The position numbers were made by a program, and so were the translations under genes. A DNA stretch of 64,000 bases from assembly GCA_030272155.1 (NCBI GenBank), contig CP126199.1, positions 3,150,501 through 3,214,500 on the forward strand. Reading direction: 5' to 3'. The notes under the pieces are model-generated. The model worked only from the letters and a program-made list of their open reading frames with translations, searched no databases and was not told where the DNA came from. Numbering within the stretch: position 1 is the first letter of the stretch; the number at the start of each line of letters is the position of its first letter. The DNA is from Tetradesmus obliquus. Its lineage: Eukaryota; Chlorophyta; Chlorophyceae; Sphaeropleales; Scenedesmaceae. This document shows positions 55-55,440 of the stretch, in pieces.

Positions 55-1814
55 TCAAAGTCGTGGTGTACCAGCACCTGCTTCCAGCATGTGGCAGCGT
101 ACACAGCATGGCAACAAGCGGCGGTTGAGGCATGGCAGAGGCAGGCCAAAGGCCTCGTGCCAGTGATGCAAGCGCACACAATCCTTGTTATGCAGCAACG
201 CCAGCCGAAAGGCAAGACAATTCTGCAGCACCATGCAAATCCCATCAAAACCAGTTGGTCCAGCTGCTAATGCTGCTGCTGCTGCCGTACTGCCTCGACC
301 CACCTTGCCGTCTGGGCTGATGTCAGCGTTGGGCAGGGCGGGGTCGACCTCCTTGAGGATGGCCAGGCTGGCATCAAGCAGCCGCCTGCAGCAGCAGCAG
401 CAGCAGCAGCAGAAGCGGCAGCAGCAGCAGCGTGAGTGCAAGCAGCACGCAATATGGTGCTGATGCTACTACTCTACAGGCTCTGTGCGAAACTCTTGCC
501 AACGCCCACAGCTGGCATGTGCTGCAGCTGTTCACAAAGCCATGCACTACCAGCACTGCCGCGCCACACGCCGCTCACCTGCAGGCCCAGGGGTCGCGCG
601 CCAGGGGCGGGTTGGGTGTGGGGATGATGCCCGCCTGGAAGTAGTTGACCAGACCCAGCTGCGGCGAGCCGATGTAGGAGCCGGAGCGGCCTGCGTAAAC
701 AAGGATTGCGGAGTCAACAAGAAGGTGAATAGACAGTGAGACACAGCAGGCACATGCGCATATCAATCACCGTGTGTAGTTTCATAGACATGTGCCAGTT
801 CTTGAAGTATATTAGCTTACCCTCCGGACGTGTGGTTAATTAAGTGATTGAGTTGTGCGAGCCAAACCGCGCATGCACGCACGCGCGCGTGCGTGCCGGC
901 AGTCTACAGCACAGAATTCCACACTTTTGCTCACCCTTGAGGGTGGGCTCTGTGAATGCAAACATGAGCGGGATGGCTCCCATGCAGGCGTCAGTGCCCC
1001 AGAAGCTGTTGGCAAACCTTGGCTCTATGCTGGCAAACATACACACCCCATTAGCACTTGTCAGGCGGCGCGCTGGCAACCATACACACCACACTGGCGC
1101 GTATCTACCCTCAAGGGTTTGATACTTGTCCGTGGCTCTGTACATGCACAAAAACCATGCACAAAAAGCCAGTTTCTAAATGCACTCACCCTTGAGGCTG
1201 GGCTCCGTAGATGCAAACATGAGTGGGATGGCTCCCATGCAGGCCTCAGTGCCCCAGAAGCTGTTGGCGAACGCCTCCACGCCCGCGCTGCTCTTCTTGG
1301 CGTCAGTGTCGGCCTTGCCAAAGTGGTCGGTGCGAGTGAGGCCGGGGTGCGCGATGAACACCTGTGTTGCGGCAAAGACAGCGGCAGCAAACATCAAACA
1401 CGCTGCGAACAAGAGGGAAAGCAGATCTAGCCAACGTGTTCAGAGCGGAGCAGGCCTGGGTGCGTGGAGGACACCTGGCAGCACAGCGGCAGTGAAGGGG
1501 CCCGTCTAGCACGATCGAGGTGTACACCTATGGTTTTGCAGATGCACTGAGGTCAAGCCATGCCTGTCAGCAGCAGCTGATGCGGCAAGCGTGCAGCCCC
1601 CTCCTACACGTAACAAGACAAGTAGTGAGTGTCGCATATGATTACTGTGTACCTCAGCCGCCATGCAGCCCGCTGCTGCCCTGTGCGCCTCTCACCTCCA
1701 CGCCGCTGCCAGCCAGGCGTCGCGCCATCTCCTTGCCTGTCATGAGGTTCATGAGCTTGGTGCGGCTGTACTGCCACCAGTCGGAGTCGGGGTACTGAGA
1801 GCCCCTGCAGTCAG

Positions 1815-1869
<55 letters not shown>

Positions 1870-4800
1870 GGCAGATGCAGCAGTCACTTTGTGTCAGCTG
1901 CCGGTTGCTCCACTCCGGTCCTCATCGTGAAGCAACACCACACCCGTGCCTGTTGCAGTCTTACTTGGGAGCTCGCGGCTGCCAGCAGCTGCTAGGCATA
2001 ACTACGCGGGCCGAGCTTTGGTGGGCTTGGCGCGTAACTTTTTGGGCCGAGGCGGCAGCACCCGCTTGAGATTGCTCCAGCTGCAGCCAAGCCCCGGCAA
2101 CCAGAACAATGGATACCCGGCACCGTCGGCTGGGCCACCCAAATAGGCCAGCCCCACAGTATAAACCTCCAAATAGGCTAGCCCCACAGTATAGACCTCC
2201 GCCACTCAGATCGACGCTCACTCAAGTGCCTCAAGCTTGAGGTTGTTCTAGTTGAGTCCTGGCCACAGAAACCAATCAATTCTGTTCAAGTGAATTGAGT
2301 ATGTGAATGAAGGTCGCCCCACAAGATGAGTCGCCCTGCACTCACAACCTCATTCACTTGAAGCATTTTCAGTTGCGCCCTGGCCACAGGAACTGGGCCC
2401 ACAAGGTAGGGTGACTCTGAACCCAAGACCCCACTTATTACTCACTTGAGGTCATTCTAGTTGGGCCCCAGCCACAGGAACCAGTCAGCACCCCAGCACC
2501 AGCTGTTGCCACCCTGGTAGGCCGGCCCCACACTCCACATCCCACACCATAAACCCTACCCCTACTCAGGAACCAGTAGACTGGGCACTGGCTGTTGCCC
2601 CCAAGGCAGGCCAGGCCGACTTTACACCCTACACCCCAAACCGCTAGACCCCTAAACCCCACACCCTAAACCCTACCCCACTCACTTGAGGTCATTCCAG
2701 TTGAGCACAGGCCACAGGAACCAGTCGATGCTGAGCACTGGGTGTTGTCCCCCAGGTACGCTGACCCCACACCCTAAACCCCAAAAAGCTAAATCCCTAA
2801 ACCCCTAACCCCCTAAATCCCACACGCTAAACCCTACTTACTTGAGGTCGTTCCAGTTGAGCCCCGGCCACATGAACCAGTCGATACCCGGGCACCAGCT
2901 GTTGCCCCCCAGGTATGGCGGGTTTACCAGCTGGCTGCCCACGCTGGTCACCCACACAATGCGGCTGGGGGCTGTGGCCTTCAGCACGTCCAGCAGCTGG
3001 TAGGTCAGGTACAGCGGACCAAAGAAGTTGCTGGACATGGTCACCTACAGAGAAAAGCAGGTTGATCACGTAGTGTAATGTTGTACAATGTAATGTTATG
3101 TTAGGTTGCATTGCGTTGTGTAACAATGTGTCATTTTGGCGAGTGTGGAGCAGTGCGCTGGCCTTGAGCACGTCCAGCAGCTGGTAGGTGAGGTACAGCG
3201 GCCCGAACAAGTTGCTGGACATGATCACCTGCGGTGGTAAGCGGGGTTGTGATGCTACGTTACGCTGCATTACGTAACAGTACTTCAGTTCTGCAGGTTT
3301 GGGGAGGAGTAATGTTGCTTTAAGCAAGTCCAGCAACTTGTAGGTGAGGTACAGGGGGCCAAAGAAGTTGCTGGAGATGGTGACCTGCAGATGTGCACAT
3401 CACCATGTCCAGCAACTTCTTTGGCCCTTTGTATCCGGATATAAGCAGGTTTGTAACAGTACATGTTCATATGATACGTCACGTAACAATGCATCAATTT
3501 GGCGGAATGGTGCTCTTGAGCACGTCCAGCAGTTGGTAGGTGAGATACAGCGGACCAAAGTAGGTGCTGGACATTGTCACCTGCGGGGATATGCATGCCG
3601 TGCAACAACGCGTCACTTCTGTGCAACAACGCGTCACTTCTGTGCAACAACGTGTCACTTCTGTGCAACAACGCGTCACTTCTGTGCAACAACGCGTCAC
3701 TTCTGTGCAACAACGCATCACTTCTGTGCAACAACGCATCAGACTTGACAAATGCTGCAGGCGTGAAGAGGGCAAAGTTGCTTGCAGCGCGTCCAGCAGC
3801 TGGTGGGTGAGGTACAGCGGGTCGAAGAAGTTGCTGAATGTGGTCACCTGCCAGCGAGTTTGCAGGAGCGGGCTTCCTCGTGCCATATGACCTCAGGACA
3901 CAGCTGTCTACAAGTGACCAGTAGATTACAAGCTCGGCTGGCCAGCCAGGCCATGCAGCATGCCATTATGAGTTACATGATGGGCAGCAAGCAGCAGCCT
4001 CACCTCAAAGCCTCCAGGCGTCTTCTGCCCCCTGTGGCCGGCTGGCGCCTGGATGCCCGCGTTGTTGAGCAGCACGTGCAGCGGCCAGCCGCGGGCCTTG
4101 AAGTCATCAGCCATGGCCTTGATGGAGCTGCGGCAGCATGAGCAGCAGCAGTTTGCAGCAGCAGGAGGAGGTTGCAGCGGCATTGCCTGGCACCATCCTG
4201 TTCTGCTGACGAGATGCAGTCTCCCACATTCAGCAGCTGCACGTGCACTTCAATGCGTCACAGGTAAGGTGTAGCTGCAGCATCTGCAAGCTACTAAGGT
4301 AATGTGGCCACTGCGCTGCTCTGAGCATTGCTCTGGCCTGAGCACTGCTTTGAACACTGGCCGTACTGCCGTACTGCTTTACTGCCGTACTGCTGTACCG
4401 CCGTACTGCCGTACTGCAGCTCCTGCTCAACTCACTCGAAGTCTGTCAGGTCGCAGATCATGACCTCAAGCTGGGCCTTGGGGGAGGCGGTGCGGCGCAG
4501 GTCCTCAACAACCCTGAGGGGCAGCAGCACCAGCACCAGCACCAGCAGCAGCAGCAACAGCAGCACCAGCAGCAACAGCAGCACCAGCAGCAGCTGAGAT
4601 GGTAGGCATTCGTGCACTGCTGCGCCACCCACTGCCTGCTGTGCTGGATGCGTCAAGCAGCTGTGCTGCACGCTGCTGACATGCGTAGCCGCACACTTGC
4701 TAACTGTAGTACATTGATACCAGTGCAGAACATACAGCAGCATGCAGCAGTGTAGATGCCAACTCCCTCACAATCATACTGCAATGTTATGTGTTGCAAC

Positions 4801-5440
4801 AAACTCGGCAAGTGCATCAGCCGCAAGTGCATCAGCCGCATTGTAGTTGCTGCTGACTAGCTTTGGCAGCGCTGCAATGTAATGCGCACCTGCGGGCCTT
4901 GTCCTCATTGCGGCCGTGGATGATGACGCGCGCGCCGTGCTCCGCGAATGCACGCGCCGCTTCAAAGCCCACACCATCAGTGGCACCAGTCACCATGATG
5001 GTCTTGCCCTGCAGCAGGCAGGCGACAGCAGACAACACGCAGCGCCAAGGCACCCGTCAAAACATGTGCAGAGGTCAAATGCAGTTGGAGCAGCTGCACC
5101 ATGCACTATGATGGTCTTGCCCTGCAGAAGGCCAAAGCACAGCCAGCGCCAACTTGGCAAGACACCTTGTTGGCACATGTGCAAAATACAGCAGGCCTGA
5201 GATGCATTTGGATCAGCTGCAGATGCTGCGCTGCGCTGCTTTATTGAGCTCTGCATGGTACCCAGCGCTGAGATCCCGTTCACACACAAGCAAGCCACAA
5301 TAACACAACAAGCACAGCAAACAAAAAGATGGTCACAAGGCTCTCGGGCCCACCTCCAGGTCAGGGATGTCCCGCTCGGTCCATGTTGCGGCTGTGTACC
5401 ATTGCTTGGCAATGTCGTAGATGTCACGTGCGAGGTTCAT
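55..5440 (-). CDS. Short-chain dehydrogenase/reductase (retinol dehydrogenase/WWOX-like), 9 exons, 444 aa
   Basis: Exons in coding order: 5440-5354, 5008-4890, 4513-4436, 4127-4004, 3044-2842, 1804-1696, 1361-1190, 690-579, 385-55; all junctions GT-AG and all phases agree. Classical SDR marks are visible: cofactor loop TGATDGVG with upstream GKTIMV, LLNNAG, a catalytic Ser in WVTSVGS, the YxxxK pair in QYSRTKLMN, and HPGLTRTDHF after it. These indicate an NAD(P)H-dependent oxidoreductase; the substrate is unknown. The family resembles retinol dehydrogenase/WWOX-type SDRs. The start gives MNLARDIYDIAKQ; an in-frame stop lies 9 nt upstream of it. The C-terminal ~70 residues after the family core are Ala-rich and then basic and Cys-containing, and I do not recognise them; the last exon could be shorter if an intron was missed. 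The introns are crowded with copies of exon edges (listed separately). Confidence 0.85.
386..433 (-). repeat. CTG tract at SDR exon 9 acceptor
   Basis: On the coding strand a CTG run ends directly in CTGCAG at the acceptor (385). Confidence 0.85.
936..1018 (-). repeat. Copy of the SDR exon 7 3' end and donor
   Basis: This segment encodes FANSFWGTDACMGAIPLMF and TEPTLKG, nearly identical to the end of exon 7 (1190-1275), and keeps a GTGAGC donor. It lies in intron 7, about 250 bp downstream of the true donor. Confidence 0.85.
1818..1868 (-). repeat. CTG tract upstream of SDR exon 6 acceptor
   Basis: About 16 CTG units on the coding strand, ending 13 nt before the acceptor at 1804. Confidence 0.9.
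2141..2200. repeat. 30-bp tandem repeat, two copies
   Basis: Two adjacent 30-bp units begin AAATAGGC and end ACCTCC, differing at two positions. They lie inside an SDR intron. Confidence 0.9.
2226..2757 (-). repeat. Degenerate tandem copies of the SDR exon 5 3' end and donor
   Basis: Segments near 2690-2757, 2441-2515, 2353-2400 and 2226-2275 repeat the end of exon 5 (WFMWPGLNWNDLK) and its donor in the same orientation. The two nearest copies keep a CTCAA|GTGAGT donor; the two farthest have decayed. A shorter piece lies at 2565-2600. Confidence 0.75.
2525..2840. repeat. Interstitial degenerate telomere-like repeats (CCCTAAA)
   Basis: Blocks at about 2535-2560, 2620-2685 and 2765-2838 contain many ACCCTAAAC, CCCTAAAC and CCCTAAAT units. 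The plant-type telomere unit is CCCTAAA. They alternate with the decayed donor-side copies of SDR exon 5. Confidence 0.65.
2842..3044 (-). other. SDR exon 5, the authentic copy flanked by junction duplications
   Basis: This exon encodes VTMSSNFFGPLYLTYQLLDV through the catalytic-Ser segment IVWVTSVGS to GLNWNDLK. It is the only complete version. Its acceptor-side half recurs four times upstream and its donor-side half about four times downstream, in the same orientation. Confidence 0.85.
3350..3433. repeat. Inverted repeat made from an inverted SDR exon fragment
   Basis: 3350-3382 (part of an acceptor-side copy of exon 5) pairs with 3401-3433 at about 30 of 33 positions, with an 18-nt loop. 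The right arm is an exon-5 fragment in the opposite orientation, so the pre-mRNA could fold into a hairpin here. Confidence 0.8.
3601..3747. repeat. 21-bp minisatellite, 7 copies
   Basis: Seven head-to-tail copies of a 21-bp unit beginning TGCAACAACGCGTCACTTCT. The first six differ only at a CG/TG/CA dinucleotide, the kind of change expected from methyl-C deamination; the seventh is more diverged at its end. The array lies between two acceptor-side exon copies in SDR intron 4. Confidence 0.95.
5092..5120 (-). repeat. Copy of the SDR exon 2 acceptor and first codons
   Basis: CTGCAG followed by codons for GKTIIVHGA copies the start of exon 2 (GKTIMVTGA at 5008). It lies about 110 bp upstream of the true acceptor, inside intron 1. 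Confidence 0.7.
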
Positions 5441-6538
5441 CGTGAACTGTTATTGCCTGCAGAGTTCCGCCTATAAGGAAGATAAATGCAACATACGATT
5501 GGCAGGGAGCAGACAAGCAGGCACAGTGTGGCAGGCAGTTCAGTGTGTTGTGAGTGGGAGTGTGGAGGTGGATGCAGCTACAGTTGAGATGCAGAGTTTG
5601 CCCTCTGCATGCTTTTGTGCAACAGATGGCTGCAAGCAACAGCAGCGCCACACAAGTGCGCGGCTGCTGTTGCCGGGTGAAACAAGGAATGTGTGGGCAC
5701 GAATGAATGGCATGCCAAACAAGCCCACCCAACACTTCAGTACCTATCTTAGCTATGACCAAAGTGAGACTGTTGCACGTTGTTATGTTGCGTGGCCCAG
5801 TGTGCCCATAGTCCCAGGTGCTGTGCATTGCTGCATGCAGTTCTGCCGTAATGCTCTGCAGCAGGAGCTTCCCATGTGCAGCAGCTGCTGCCACTGCTAC
5901 AGCCGTTGTTGCAGCTGGTGTTGTCGATGGTTTCAACTTCTTCGTCCAACTGCTGCCATAGGCAGACACGAATGAAACCACGCTCACCTAGCAAACTGTA
6001 CCACGCACTTGCTGTGCACAACTTGAGCTTCTGCGTTGATTTCGCGAACGATTTTGTTCAAGGGCACGATATCGTTTCAGTTCAGCTTCGCTACACAGGC
6101 AATATGCGTTGGGCCTCACCGTTAGAATCACTTCCATCCACATGCGGCAATGATCTGTTCATGACTCGTCCAAAGTTGCGCATTGCGTACGAACAGTAAC
6201 GGTCGCACTCATCATGACGCCGAACAGCTCCAATCTGCCACACATATAAGCGTAAATAGTTTTTGTATACAATATTTACAGTGAACTGCTCTGCCCGCTC
6301 ACCCTGCACAGTTCGAACATTGGAACCCCGCCTGCTACAGCTGCCCTGCAGCTGCAGCATCGGCATAGACTCAAAGGCCAACACACACCGCAAAGTACAA
6401 GGCATGCCACATGCCACCAAAACCAGCTGCTGCATTCCCACTAGCTGCTGCCACTGCCTTGACCAGTGCTTCAGCAACAGTGCACAGCATGCAGCTTCCT
6501 GTCATTCTAACTTGAAGGGCCGCACCCGGTGCCCTGCG

Positions 6539-7511
6539 CTACTGCTGCTTGGCTGCCGCAGCTGCCAGCCCAAGCACTGCATCTGCCAGCGCTTGGTAGT
6601 CAATGATGCTGTTGTATATCTGCGCTGAGATGCGCACAAACAGCCGCCCGCCGACGCATGCCACAGGCACCTCAATGCAATGCACCTCCCGCAGATGCTT
6701 GTTGATTGCAGCAGCCGCTGCAGCGCTGGGGTACTCCCATGCTCCCACACCGCCTGCATCTGCTGCTACGCCATTCACCGCCACAACCACTGCTGCTGCT
6801 GCTGCTGCTTCAGCAGCAGCTGGCGCATTGTCTAGCCCGCCACAGCTGCCATCTACTGCTGCCTTTCCTGCACTGCAAACTCCACTGCTGCTGCTGCTGT
6901 AGGGTATGCTCAGCGGCCAAGGCATCTCTACTGCTGCCATGCCTGCAGTCGTGCCATCTCTACTGATACCCAGCACCATGTGAGTGCCCCATGCCTGCTG
7001 CAGCTGCTGCACTGCCTGCTTTACAAGGCTGTGGTTGTGGTCTATCACTCGCTGCTGCTGCAGCGCCTGCAGCACTGCCAGGCAGGCGGGGACTGCCAGC
7101 CAGGGTGTGATGTCGGCGGTGCCCTGGCAGCAGCAGCAGCAGCAGCAGCGGAGCAGCAATGTGGCGTCAACAAGCCAGTTTTCATGATGAGTATCTTGCT
7201 GCTGCGATGTCGAAGCCACTCACCCTAGACAGCATCGACCCCCACATCACAGCCGCTACACACCTAGCTGCAGCGCCGCAGCACCCCAGCCTCCCCATCA
7301 GGCTGCACAAGCATCACCAGACAGAACCAAACAACATCGTGTGCAACAAAAGCAATTCACATGTCTAATCACTATTTGCCTCCAAGCCAATGCAGCCGCC
7401 GCACCTGCCACAGGAACTCGCCCCTGAACCCCAGGCCATAGCCGTGGCTGACCACCAGCGGCTTCACAGCATCCTGCCTACTGGGGTGCACCCACAGCAG
7501 CGCAGCGCCCT

Positions 7512-7547
<36 letters not shown>

Positions 7548-10500
7548 CCACGCAACATGATGGGAGGCAGCTGTTGAGCGTGCAGTCAGCGCTGTGTGCC
7601 CTTGCACAGTACACCGAGTACCCAGCTGACTGCTGCGCAACCACTTGTCGTTTGTGCAGCCCTACACAGCCAACGATAGGGAAGACTCTGCGCTGCTCCT
7701 GCTGCATGTTGCTGCACACATCCCCACAATTGCGGCATGCCCACCTTGGGCGTGCACATCCAGGTTTAAGGTGCAAGGTGCAACCCGCTGCGACCAGTCT
7801 GCACAACTCAACAAACTAAACACCCACTCCTGCTGCAAGTGCTCTCGCAACGTTGCATGCACATTCGACCATCATGTTACCAATTAAGCCATAGCAATGT
7901 CGCCATCGGCCCCGCTTGGCCCCGCACCCCACAGGAGCGGCTGAATGTTGCATGCACGTTGTGCCGTACCTTGGGCGTGCACATCCACTTGTGCAGGTTT
8001 GAGGTGTAGTAGGTGCAGCCCAGGCTGGGCAGGGCCAGGTCAGGCAGGCTGCCCACGGCATGCGCGCCGTCAACAAGCACAGGCACGCCAGCGTCCCTGC
8101 ATGGTGACGCGGTTGCCAGCAGCGCAGCACAACACAGCGCAGCGGATGGTTTGTCATGGTGAGGGCAGGGAGGCATCATTACGCCAGGCAGGCTGCCCAC
8201 TGCATGCGCACCGTCAACCAGCACAGGCACGCCAGCGTCCCTGCAACAACCAGCGGCAGTGCAACACAGAATCATCCACAAGGTACATGTCTAGGTTAGG
8301 CAGGCTGCCCTGATCTCACACCACTGCGCGCCGTCCACCAGCACAGGCACGCCGGCGTCCCTGCGTAGCGACAGCAGCAGCACAGCAGCATGATGCAGCT
8401 GGTTTGCATATGCAGGGCAGGGAATTCGTGTGTATGCCAGGTAGGCTGCCCACAGTATGTTTGCCCCGTCAAGCAGACACAGGCACCCCGGCATCCCTGC
8501 GGCACAAAAGGGCACAACAGCAGTACAAGACAGCAGGCTGATGCAGCAGCATTGCGACAGTGACAGTGGTTCAGCCGTTGCTGCTGCTGGTGCTGCTTCC
8601 TGCAGAACGAGGGAGCGCTTCAAACCCGCTTGTACATGTTGCTGCTGGTCTGCATACAGGCAGACTCTTTCTGCAAATACTGTCTGCAAAAATGACATCA
8701 GCAAATACAAATAAACAGACCTGCACATGCTGCAGATCTGCGCCACGGGCAGCACCACAGGCGGGAATGACACCACGTGGTCCAGCACAGCCAGCTTCAG
8801 CCGCCGCCCGCCAGCAGCCAGCGCGGCACGGAAGCAGGCCAACACCCGCTCCTCATCCTGGCAGCAGCAGCAGCAGCAGCAGCGGCAGCGGTGCACATGG
8901 AGCTTGTTTGCACTGAATCAACAGGTTGTGCTGTGTGGCTGAGGTTCCGGGCAAGATAGCTTGGCTGGGGCTGTGCAGAGCCAGTAGCACTCATGCACCA
9001 TCCTTTGCTGTCATGACCATTCAACAGATACAACAGATATAACTGTCATAACAGCCCCACCATGAGATCTTCCAGCTCAAAGGAGAGCTCCAGCAGGCCA
9101 GCGCCGGCAGCAGCAGCAGCACGCGCCAGCGTGCTACGCACCTGCAGACACCATACACAGCAGCCAGCCAGCAGCAGCACCAGCAACGCAACCCACTGTG
9201 TCACACCCCACTCTGGTGCAAGCATAACAAGGTTAATGTTACCACAGTTTCTTCTCCGCATTATGTCTTACCCGTCTGTCATGTTCACCACATGCAGGTT
9301 GTGCTACTGCTGCTGCTGCTGCTGTTGCGTGCACCACCGGTGCGTCGCGTTGCTCATGAGCAGCAGGTCTTCCTCTGCGATGTTCACAGCAATGCAAGTG
9401 GCAATGCTGCTGCTGCTCCTGCTGCTGCTGCTGCTGGCGCTGGCGCTGCTGTGTGCCGCCCACTCACCGCCGGGTACGTCGCGTTGCTCATGAGCAGCAG
9501 GTCTCCCCTGCGCAGCTGCAGCGAGGCCACCACTGCGTTGACCGCAGCCGTGGCGTTGACCACGGGCACCACATCCTGCCAGCTGGCGCCCACAAAGCCA
9601 GCCACATCAGCCACAGCCCTCACCAGGCCTGGTGGGGTGCAGCGGTGAGGCAGTGCAGCAGTGCAGTACAGTGCAGCACGTTTGCAGGTCAGAACAGCGC
9701 ATCACAGTGCAAGACAGTGCGGGAAGCAGGCCAGGCGGCAACAGCAGCGGCAGAAGCAAGACGCGCACTGCGATGCTAGCGAGGGGGCACTTGTCTGATG
9801 TAGCCTTGCCTCCAGCAGTTGGATCAACATACTTGGTATTAATCTCAAGAGCTGCAGCTGCTGCAACAGCAGCAGCAATATGTGTTGCGCTGCATTTGCA
9901 GCTGCCTGTGCGCGAGCTGCGCTCACCTGCCATAGCCACTGTCTCCATGAACCTGCAGCCAAGACACAGGACGGCGAGGGTGTCTTGGTGCACGGTCTGT
10001 GCCAACAACAACATGTTTAGTCAACGCTCCATTGTCCACCAAACAGATGCAATGTTGAGTTGGTGGCCCTGTTATTTACCCATAATGACAGACAGACGAG
10101 CAGATTTGTGCCGTTCTGCAGGCGGCATTGACACCGCAATTGACGCTGCACATGGCTGTGTAGCAGCTACACATCGACACAGTGCGCACCATCTGCAAGC
10201 GCTCCGCATTCAACATCACAGCTATCTGCATGTACAACACACAGCGTGTGTGAGCATGCCCGAAGGCTGTTCTGCTCACAGCACTGGCTCCTGCTGCATC
10301 AGCGAGCGGCCTGCAGAGTATGGACAGCTATGTGCATGCACAAAACACAGCGCTCCTGCGCAAGCCTGAAGGCCATCTTTTGTGGGGGAAAGGAAAGGTT
10401 ATGCTTACCGCACTGGCTCCTGCTTCATCTACAAGCAACCTGCAAAGCACACTCGGCTATGTGCATGTACAACACACAGCGTGTGTGAGCATGTCTGAAG

Positions 10501-11114
10501 GCTATCTTGCTCACAGCACTGGCTCCTGCTGCATCTGCAAACGGCCTGCACAGTATGGACAGCTATGTGCAGGCACAAAACACAGCGCGCCTGTGCAAGC
10601 CTGAAGGCCATCTGTTGTGGGGAAAGGAAAGGTTATGCTGGCATGGGATGCTTGCATGCTGGAATGGAATACTTGTACTCACCGCACTGGCTCCTGCTCC
10701 ATGAGCTGCCGGTACCAGCTCTGCACCTCCAGCGCCAGCCTGCACATAGCAAACAAAAATAAAACAGGATTTTAAACAAAAGATAATGCTGCGACCTAGC
10801 AGCACATGGCCGCCGGCAGTGCCAAGAATGCTGCTGCACAGCAAACTAGCACTACGCCGTACTGCTGCTGCTGCTGCAGTTGCATGCCAGGGCAGCAGCG
10901 AATGCTGCTGCACAGCAAACTAGCACTGCGCCCCAGTGCTGCTGCTGCTGCTGCTGCTGCTGCTTGCATGCCAGGGCAGCAGCGCTGCACCTGAAGGTGG
11001 CCCCATAAGAGCCGTGGTTGAGGTAGTGCGGGAACGCCTTGTCCAGCGCAAACAGCTGCTGCCGGCACTCGCTGCTGCCGAGCTCCAGCGTGAACATGGC
11101 CGCGGCTTGCTCCT

Positions 11115-54200: not shown

Positions 54201-54962
54201 TGTTGTGACGCGTAGATGGTACTGGGAGCCACATCTAGCTACCTGTCACTCAGTAACGCTGCTGCTGCTCCTGCTGCTGCTGCTGCTGCGCCAGGCCCTG
54301 CAAAGGTGTGGGCAAGCCCTATGAGAAGCTGGCTGCGCAGTACGCCAAGAGCGCGGTGTTCCTCAAGCTCTTTGGCAACGCCAACGCGGGCTGCAAGCGC
54401 ATGTTCAAGTCGTTCAAGATCCGCAGCACGCCCAGCTTCCTGTACTTCAGGGCAGGTGAGCAGGCGGCACCTGTTGCTATGTGTGCTTGCACAGCATGCC
54501 CAGCGTTCTAGGGTTTAGGGTACGTCAGAGCAGGTGTGGTGCTGTTGAGGTGATGACCAGATGGCATACGTGCCCTTGCTGATGCGTGTGTGCTTCTGCA
54601 GGGTTCGGCAGTGCGTTGCTGCGCTAGCTCATGCAGCAGTATGGTGCTGTTGGTGGACCACTTTTCACGCCGGCCTGCGCCTGCGTCACCATGGTTGTTG
54701 GCTATCGTCAGCAGCATACCTACATCACAAGTGAGGGCCAAACTCCTGCCCCCACAACATGCCTCTGCCTGACCGTCTGCCTGCGCTTGCCTGCTGTGCT
54801 GTGTGTGCTGCTGCAGGCGAGCTGTTGGGCAGCAGCACAGGCGCCAATAAGGTGCGGCTGGAGACCAACCTGCGCAGCCACCTGCCGCAGGAGGGGCTGC
54901 CAGAGCCACTGTACGAGCTGGAGCCAGCTGCAGAGCCTGCAGCAGCAACAGCCACAGTTTGA
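51211..54962 (+). CDS. CRX: Calredoxin: four EF-hands fused to a thioredoxin domain, plastid-targeted, 9 exons, 378 aa
   Basis: Exons: 51211-51431, 51690-51774, 52222-52282, 52450-52569, 52922-53035, 53376-53494, 53870-53979, 54295-54455, 54817-54962; all phases agree. Residues 1 to about 55 are basic and hydroxylated, lacking a hydrophobic core, as in chloroplast transit peptides. Four EF-hand loops follow: DIDGSGRIDRKE, DVDKSGDIDFEE, DDSGNGSIGATE and DKDESGQIEFGE. The thioredoxin domain has the active site WCRPC, split by intron 7, and the cis-Pro loop RSTPSFLYF. In Chlamydomonas, calredoxin couples Ca2+ binding to redox activity and reduces a 2-Cys peroxiredoxin; the same role in the stroma is inferred here. 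The active site carries Arg at the position that is Gly in classic WCGPC thioredoxins. Confidence 0.93.
52646..52694 (+). repeat. Copy of the calredoxin exon 4 3' end (third EF-hand loop) and donor
   Basis: Encodes DAFNAVDDSGNGSIG, identical in protein to the end of exon 4 (52521-52569), followed by a GTGCGC donor, 125 bp downstream in intron 4. Three silent differences separate the copies. Used as a cassette exon it would shift the frame. Confidence 0.9.
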
Positions 54963-55440
54963 ATAGGCCAGGCTGCGGTAGCAGCAACAGCCGCAGTATC
55001 GGTGGTGACGCTGCAGGGCCTGAGGCAGCAGCAGCTGCTGCAGTGTAGGCGGGCAGCCTGCTGTCGGAGCCGCTGTACGAGCTGGAGCCAGCTGCAGAGC
55101 CTGCAGCAGCAACAGCCACAGTTTGAATAGGCCAGGCTGCGGTAGCAGCCACGGCCAATGTATAGGTGGTGTGACGCTGCAGGGCCTGAGGCAGCAGCAG
55201 CTGCTGCAGTGTAGGCTGGCGGCTTGCTGCTGGAGCCGCTGTAAGAGCTGGAGCCAGCTGCCTGCAGCAGCAACAGCCACAGTATGAATAGGCCAGGCTG
55301 TGGTAGCAGCACAGCCACAGTATAGGTGGTGACGCTGCAGGGCCTGAGGCAGCAGCAGCTGCTGCAGTGTAGGCTGGCGGCCTGCTGCTGGAGCCGCTGT
55401 ACGAGTTGGAGCTGCCTGCAGGGCCTGCAGCAGCGATCGC
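54905..55440 (+). repeat. About 160-bp tandem repeat carrying copies of the calredoxin C terminus and stop
   Basis: Four units start near 54905, 55069, 55235 and 55393 (periods 164, 166, 158). Each begins with codons like PLYELEPAAEPAAATATV and the second repeats the stop codon context exactly. Only the first unit is used by the gene; the rest lie in the 3' UTR. Confidence 0.9.

Follow-up and report, generated by a model that had tools for sequence, protein, structure and literature searches.

Copies of exon edges beside their own splice junctions in the introns of Tetradesmus obliquus

A dehydrogenase gene and its repeated exon edges

The window analysed here is a 64,000-nt stretch on contig 9 of the T. 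obliquus genome (104.66 Mb, 17 contigs). The gene under study extends from 5440 to below 304 on the minus strand. Its product is a short-chain dehydrogenase (PF00106 in Pfam), for which the annotated T. obliquus protein OEZ86_001767 (P0001, 433 aa) is a full-length match. Nine exons were placed via their splice sites and by comparison of their translation with P0001, and the spliced translation corresponds, compared by eye, to the first 362 residues of that protein.

5354-5440, minus strand: exon 1
4890-5008, minus strand: exon 2
4436-4513, minus strand: exon 3
4004-4127, minus strand: exon 4
2842-3044, minus strand: exon 5, working copy, 203 nt
1696-1804, minus strand: exon 6
1190-1361, minus strand: exon 7
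579-690, minus strand: exon 8
304-385, minus strand: exon 9

Exon 5 is present once, with no insert, in the five orthologues that span the region (60-92% identity); a sixth aligned protein is a fragment. A sequence-only reading of the window had claimed that this exon is surrounded by copies of its own edges, which was confirmed by aligning the gene with itself and by an exon scan, in which each exon is compared with its own flanks. The elements found in the gene are as follows, with the method given in brackets.

3159-3245, minus strand: upstream copy 1, acceptor and first 70 nt of exon 5, 86% (self-alignment, exon scan)
3313-3391, minus strand: upstream copy 2, acceptor and first 72 nt of exon 5, 85% (self-alignment, exon scan)
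3510-3595, minus strand: upstream copy 3, acceptor and first 71 nt of exon 5, 84% (self-alignment, exon scan)
3777-3849, minus strand: upstream copy 4, acceptor and first 71 nt of exon 5, 84% (self-alignment, exon scan)
2675-2758, minus strand: downstream copy 1, last 74 nt of exon 5 and donor GTGAGT, 84% (self-alignment, exon scan)
2567-2615, minus strand: downstream fragment of the exon 5 end, without donor, 75% (self-alignment)
2439-2525, minus strand: downstream copy 2, last 80 nt of exon 5 and donor GTGAGT, 83% (self-alignment, exon scan)
2339-2393, minus strand: downstream copy 3, last 36 nt of exon 5 and donor GTGAAT, 73% (self-alignment, exon scan)
2236-2280, minus strand: downstream copy 4, last 44 nt of exon 5, donor GT lost, 82% (exon scan)
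5091-5132, minus strand: upstream copy of the exon 2 acceptor and first 31 nt, 86% (self-alignment, exon scan)
930-1017, minus strand: downstream copy of the exon 7 end and donor, 92% (self-alignment, exon scan)
3394-3433, plus strand: reverse copy of the exon 5 start, in the spacer upstream of copy 2 (self-alignment)
3600-3741, no strand: 21-bp minisatellite, 6.8 units, 97%, in the spacer between upstream copies 3 and 4 (repeat scan)

The upstream and downstream copies of exon 5 are all direct repeats, with E values from 2e-31 to 2.4e-4 in the self-comparison within the gene. The sequence-only reading had described four upstream copies, each with the acceptor and the 5' half of the exon. Their number and their acceptors stand, AG being kept in all four and the frame of exon 5 at the start of every one, but the copied part amounts to about one third of the exon (70-72 of 203 nt). 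Its four downstream copies are likewise present, the donor GT being retained in three and lost from the last. The single orientation that it reported holds for the copies it listed but overlooks the reverse copy, and the single copies at exons 7 and 2 had also escaped notice. The reverse copy is 91% identical to working exon 5 over 32 nt and forms with 3350-3389 a near-palindrome or hairpin with 40-nt arms (88%) and a 4-nt loop.

Self-alignment bears out the earlier statement that whole-exon duplication is not involved. No copy contains the entire exon 5, and about 50 of its bases (2923-2972) are covered by no copy in either the self-alignment or the exon scan. Junction-to-junction spacing of the upstream copies is 184, 156, 196 and 267, which places their acceptors 184, 340, 536 and 803 from the working acceptor. 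None of these distances is divisible by 3, so that use of any of these acceptors would shift the frame of exon 5.

Degenerate telomere-type repeats (CCCTAAA) are found at 2626-2676 and 2760-2827, inside the downstream array, and the same unit occurs at the start of contig 14; those in the array are possibly a trace of break repair. Elsewhere in the window, the neighbouring minus-strand gene has an exon start, RDAGVPVLVDGA, that occurs three times (7970-8533), and a 164-bp tandem repeat of 3.3 units with 89% matches (54896-55434) partially overlaps a predicted exon. CAG/CTG trinucleotide runs are very numerous across the whole window.

Exon-edge copies across ten chromosomes

The survey sample, 274 kb altogether, joins the window to 10 kb next to it and to ten stretches of 20 kb, each from a different chromosome, and holds 120 pairs of local direct repeats against none in a Markov control. 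Exons were predicted with a home-made constrained gene finder, a freely self-trained one having drifted to tiny exons. Because its training used these 274 kb themselves, the edges of exons in genes without a homology check are predictions. All nine dehydrogenase exons, each of them part of the training set, were recovered exactly, and two of the copies were called as exons. One stretch (L037, C6:1510001-1520000; C6 hereafter) carries direct repeats about 790-840 bp apart and 99-100% identical, from approximately 7400 to 10000 and reaching the end of the piece, and was excluded from most counts.

For the exon scan, 362 predicted exons of at least 40 nt were each compared with their own flanks at a cut-off score of 24. 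This gave 177 matches scoring at least 24, against none in shuffled flanks; all were used in the geometry count, which some targets enter through several query exons. Predicted introns hold 107 of the matches. Among these, exon starts lie upstream in 51 cases and downstream in 5, exon ends lie downstream in 32 and upstream in 3, and the remainder are internal (8) or whole-exon (8). The other 70 fall on other predicted exons (starts, 5 upstream and 5 downstream; ends, 18 downstream and 7 upstream; 7 internal; 28 whole), and some of their targets are copies mistaken for exons by the gene finder. The direction rule is weaker in this group because either partner can be the query. The typical copy is a direct repeat that spans one splice junction, adjoins its parent junction and lies in the direction expected of tandem duplication. 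Repeated local duplication across exon-intron borders, as proposed by the sequence-only reading, is therefore supported, and is widespread rather than particular to exon 5.

Removal of C6 and of 17 predicted exons that are partial copies left 309 exons for counts per exon. Upstream start copies accompany 28 of them (54 copies) and downstream end copies 27 (45 copies); eight exons have both, compared with 2.4 expected under independence. Thirty-four matches of other geometry remain after this removal of copy-like exons. The distribution is patchy, with copies at 12 of 22 exons in the chromosome-9 sample and at none of the 24 and 12 exons in the chromosome-1 and chromosome-8 samples, respectively. 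Introns with copies (49 of 343) have a median length of 483 bp versus 280 bp (P=7e-9), which is an association only, as a longer intron gives more room for copies.

Placement of the arrays was compared with 300 rotations of the annotation, leaving out C6 and repeat pairs of more than 700 nt. A junction is touched by 45 of the 53 arrays, against 29 expected (sd 3.2; highest rotation 38), and on this null the junction excess is real. Arrays confined to introns number 2 against 12.6 expected, a shortage that may reflect their quicker fading. Purging of repeats within exons was not seen, as 5 arrays lie wholly within exons and 4.7 are expected by rotation.

An assembly error, a possibility that the sequence-only reading had itself raised, is unlikely as the source of the exon 5 arrays, because the copies show differences of 8-27% and, with C6 excluded, eight of the ten stretches counted display the pattern, three of them at just one exon. 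Three stretches were searched against the genome, namely the exon 5 region, its upstream intron and one array in the gene for the splicing factor CWC22. Within the limits of the search tool, they match nothing beyond their own locus apart from the telomere-like repeats on contig 14, and dispersed mobile introns are thus unsupported.

CWC22, in the chromosome-9 sample and on the same chromosome as the dehydrogenase, is the second gene checked by homology (MIF4G and MA3 domains by Pfam; the name is the source label). Once copy-like queries and an acidic low-complexity stretch are set aside, its exons have copies of the same kinds in the predicted direction, and exon 5374-5571 has them on both sides. 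Exon 10573-10788 is preceded by an array whose exon parts agree at 94-98%, whereas none of its spacers resembles another; the inner ends of its copies lie at 45, 45, 53 and 77 nt. A 98% identical CWC22 protein, P0122, includes none of the copies, and its sequence was probably derived from RNA, as its source contigs are at most 3.2 kb long. One copy, at 8381-8464 of the chromosome-9 sample, is an annotated exon in the T. obliquus protein P0121, where it adds 28 residues that are absent from six other aligned proteins, the near-identical P0122 included. Both P0121 (28 residues) and P0123 of Scenedesmus sp. NREL 46B-D3 (10 residues) have inserts at exon edges that are copied in T. obliquus; either mis-annotation or real use of a copied site is possible. 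The sample also contains a chromosome 5 gene that we tentatively take to be APC1; Pfam found no domain in the piece of it that was examined.

Coding status and splice sites of the copies

Indels and stops were counted in 83 copies of 43 exons (upstream starts and downstream ends in introns, C6 left out). Of 19 indels in the exon part, 18 have lengths not divisible by three, and the 1266 codons include 10 stops. Changes private to one copy were counted in 22 arrays with at least two copies, leaving out C6, C2, C3 and three doubtful exons (C5 11994, C9w 64817 and C4 17976), together with seven further exons that resemble copies or errors. The 83 missense, 5 nonsense and 48 synonymous changes give a nonsynonymous share of 0.65 (bootstrap 0.56-0.72), compared with 0.72 expected from the observed spectrum. 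For 104 exon-copy pairs (starts copied upstream and ends copied downstream, without C6), pooled dN/dS is 0.27, lower than the roughly 0.5 that we had expected if a neutral copy is set against an exon under constraint; the polarised counts, indels and stops were weighted more.

The sequence-only reading had treated the conserved frame and protein sequence of the exon 5 copies as meaningful. Private changes in these copies are nonsynonymous in 28 of 39 cases (26 missense, 2 nonsense, 11 synonymous), which is a neutral mix, so the protein likeness appears to be residual likeness from recent shared ancestry. Distances from upstream copies to the working acceptor leave remainders of 0, 1 and 2 on division by three in 17, 17 and 13 of 47 cases, and four of the 47 copies could yield an in-frame, stop-free exon. 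The frame-breaking indels, the near-neutral private changes and these distances rule out a coding role for the copies.

The acceptor, flank, spacer, partner-site and frame analyses left out the same six entries (C6, C2, C3, C5 11994, C9w 64817 and C4 17976), which gave a sample of 47 upstream and 26 downstream copies. Among all copies in introns, AG is retained in 48 of 51 upstream and GT in 23 of 32 downstream. C is found at -3 in 46 of the 47 upstream copies, and AG occurs at 0.004 per nt in -22..-3 versus 0.025-0.037 further up, as in working acceptors. Where the flanks can no longer be aligned, the pyrimidine share is still 0.69, compared with 0.50 in the intron background, and the 30 flanks of this kind hold two AGs. 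The acceptor features persist in copies with identity below 0.85, nine of which have unalignable flanks.

Partner sites are poor. After copied exon starts, even the best donor-like site is weaker than the intron background (P=0.001, 47 copies), and before copied exon ends the same is true of the best acceptor-like site (P=0.017, 26 copies). This supports selection against exon-like pairs and is not proof of it, since pyrimidine-rich spacers could contribute to the weakness. With the upstream acceptors of exon 5 all frame-shifting and the donors weak, the copies look, from their sequence, mostly like unpaired splice sites rather than alternative exons. They could possibly act as decoy splice sites. 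Cassette or poison exons in general are rejected on the weak partner sites, the CWC22 copy annotated in P0121 being the exception. Recursive splicing, which would need a GT directly after the acceptor AG, is compatible with exon 5; among the 28 exons copied upstream, however, GT begins only 8.

Origin of the arrays and relation to known systems

The exon parts of the copies are about 89% alike, and next to them the intron can often not be aligned. Across the first 20 bases of the exon, gap-free identity runs at 0.84-0.94; it is 0.90 (starts) or 0.76 (ends) in the five splice-consensus bases, then falls to 0.53 (starts) or 0.43 (ends) in the next five and to about 0.3-0.45 beyond. Of 83 pairs, 82 could be scored for their flanks (-6 to -60), and 32 of these are alike at P<0.05. 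In 17 of 40 arrays the likeness between spacers exceeds the 99% null; in the other 23 it does not. The flank score lies below the 95% null in 30 of 47 upstream copies, from 17 exons. Flanks were also simulated with 0.03-0.10 changes per branch, 5% of the changes as indels and 1500 pairs each; the fraction falling below the 95% null was 0.000, which indicates that flanks duplicated along with the exon parts would remain alignable. Plain duplication therefore does not explain alike exon parts beside unalignable flanks with a full acceptor. Conversion alone, acting on exon edges with old neutral flanks, is disfavoured because such flanks should have lost the AG-free zone that is retained.

The best explanation, to which we give a probability of about 0.5, is recurrent tandem duplication spanning single splice junctions, followed by exchange between copies and rotation of acceptors. 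Short duplications, with a unit mostly of about 95-270 bp, would recur over single junctions in this alga. One over an acceptor would leave a spare acceptor and exon start upstream, and one over a donor a spare exon end and donor downstream. As long as the exon-proximal site is used the old mRNA would still be made and the duplication tolerated; a complete additional exon would change the message. Duplications hidden by splicing in this way would give the direction rule and the few whole-exon copies in introns. The leftover copies, non-coding and without a strong partner site, would mostly not serve as cassette exons and would lengthen the intron. Exchange and rotation are proposed since plain duplication falls short. 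With the shared exon edge as anchor, unequal exchange or conversion would add and remove units and keep exon edges alike while spacers diverge. It would also rotate acceptors into the working slot, so that every leftover acceptor would be a recently working one.

The duplication step is well supported, and the geometry in the dehydrogenase and CWC22 genes agrees with that of the survey, copy-like queries and the acidic low-complexity stretch aside. The sequence itself shows this geometry and its recurrence, the freedom from coding constraint, the weak partner sites and the link with longer introns; tolerance through use of the exon-proximal site, exchange and acceptor rotation are what we infer from it. 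Several observations fit less well: the arrays without spacer likeness above the 99% null, the pooled dN/dS of 0.27, the shortage of intron-only arrays, the lack of any shortage of repeats within exons, the weaker direction rule among matches to other exons, the 34 matches of other geometry, the patchy distribution, and the poorer keeping of donors than of acceptors, which rotation alone does not predict.

Neutral tandem duplication of random segments, with selection against coding damage and no exchange, would attribute the drop in likeness at the junction to fast intron decay. The direction rule and the neutral changes in the copies are as it predicts, as are the tandem-like spacers in 17 arrays and the intron flanks that are still alike in 32 pairs. 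It has difficulty with the 30 upstream flanks below the null, whose exon parts are only about 11% different, whose acceptor features are intact and which have no counterpart in the simulation. Nor does it account for intron-only arrays being rarer than expected when repeats within exons are not depleted; random duplication would not yield that deficit unless intron-only arrays fade faster. We regard this account as unlikely.

Selection on the acceptors themselves has also to be considered. An exon might possess an interchangeable set of acceptors, kept as standby or decoy sites and refreshed via the shared edge; if this rather doubtful idea were true, splice-site use and intron length would evolve through turnover of cassettes and not through point mutation. 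Taken as working acceptors under selection, the upstream copies would tune splicing or send RNA to decay. The retention of AG, the pyrimidine share even beside unalignable flanks and the scarcity of AG in -22..-3 point in this direction, as does the one CWC22 copy that P0121, unlike the six other proteins in the alignment, includes as an exon. The copies are, however, free of coding or frame constraint, the donors that follow them are weaker than background and GT is less well kept in the downstream copies. Copies within an array also share ancestry, the 30 with unalignable flanks representing 17 exons. Selection for working acceptors seems to us distinctly unlikely.

Copies might instead have been born without their intron, by insertion anchored at the junction, for example through a template switch at TGCAG/GTGAG or as an RNA-derived patch. 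The CWC22 array upstream of 10573-10788, with its closely alike exon parts, inner ends at 45 to 77 nt and unlike spacers, speaks for such a process. A random insertion point would not bring a pyrimidine tract and an AG-free zone with it, and the 51:5 and 32:3 direction rule, the tandem-like spacers of other arrays and the lack of matches elsewhere in the genome for the searched stretches make this origin quite improbable. A few whole-exon copies do occur in the sample (the eight whole-exon matches in introns), but remnants of whole-exon duplications, or an assembly fault, are scarcely credible as an account given the uncovered bases 2923-2972 and copies that differ by 8-27% at many loci.

If recurrent duplication over junctions with later exchange is the correct reading, introns would grow and fill with unused splice sites by exon-edge copying. 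Introns are conspicuously long in green algae around Chlamydomonas, and a comparative study (PMC8226300) considers whatever drives their length likely ancient and the benefit of the added length unknown. The mean intron of T. obliquus, 462 bp, is the longest among five green-algal genomes in a published table (PMC5966456), the others being 230-302 bp. Repeated duplication over splice junctions would be a concrete route to such longer introns. The arrays are also natural series of strong acceptors, mostly skipped in annotated proteins, and offer a test of acceptor choice among near-identical sites. Gene annotation can also be led astray by such copies, to judge from the 28 residues added in P0121.

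Tandem exon duplications and mutually exclusive exons consist of whole exons with both splice sites. They resemble the arrays in placing repeated exon sequence in adjoining introns; the T. obliquus copies differ in mostly comprising one edge and one splice site, and do not combine a whole exon, both sites and an open frame. A model of intron gain by AGGT tandem duplication, reportedly linked with Gao and Lynch (2009) and Hellsten (2011), shares with them a local tandem duplication hidden by splicing. An exonic AGGT is duplicated in that model and an intron created between the copies, whereas in T. obliquus existing introns appear to lengthen. Introners (see PMC9860276) are likewise intron-related and numerous in a genome, but they are dispersed and create introns. 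The T. obliquus copies are local to their own exon, and for the three stretches searched no similar copies occur at many unrelated loci.

No report of such exon-edge arrays was found among the matches listed in the open-licence literature. The nearest precedent comes from the potato RdRp gene, in which Ma, Lan and Niu (2016, PMC4974935) describe a single intron gain via a tandem duplication crossing the intron-exon boundary. The 3' side of an intron and the 5' side of the next exon were duplicated there, so that the copy inherited tract and acceptor as in T. obliquus. It was one event in one gene, in which a cryptic donor within the copied exon part made a new intron. T. obliquus has up to five copies per exon edge, at both exon ends and in many genes, with weaker-than-average donors after the copies. 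We therefore regard its arrays as tandem genomic duplication across the intron-exon border in a new form.
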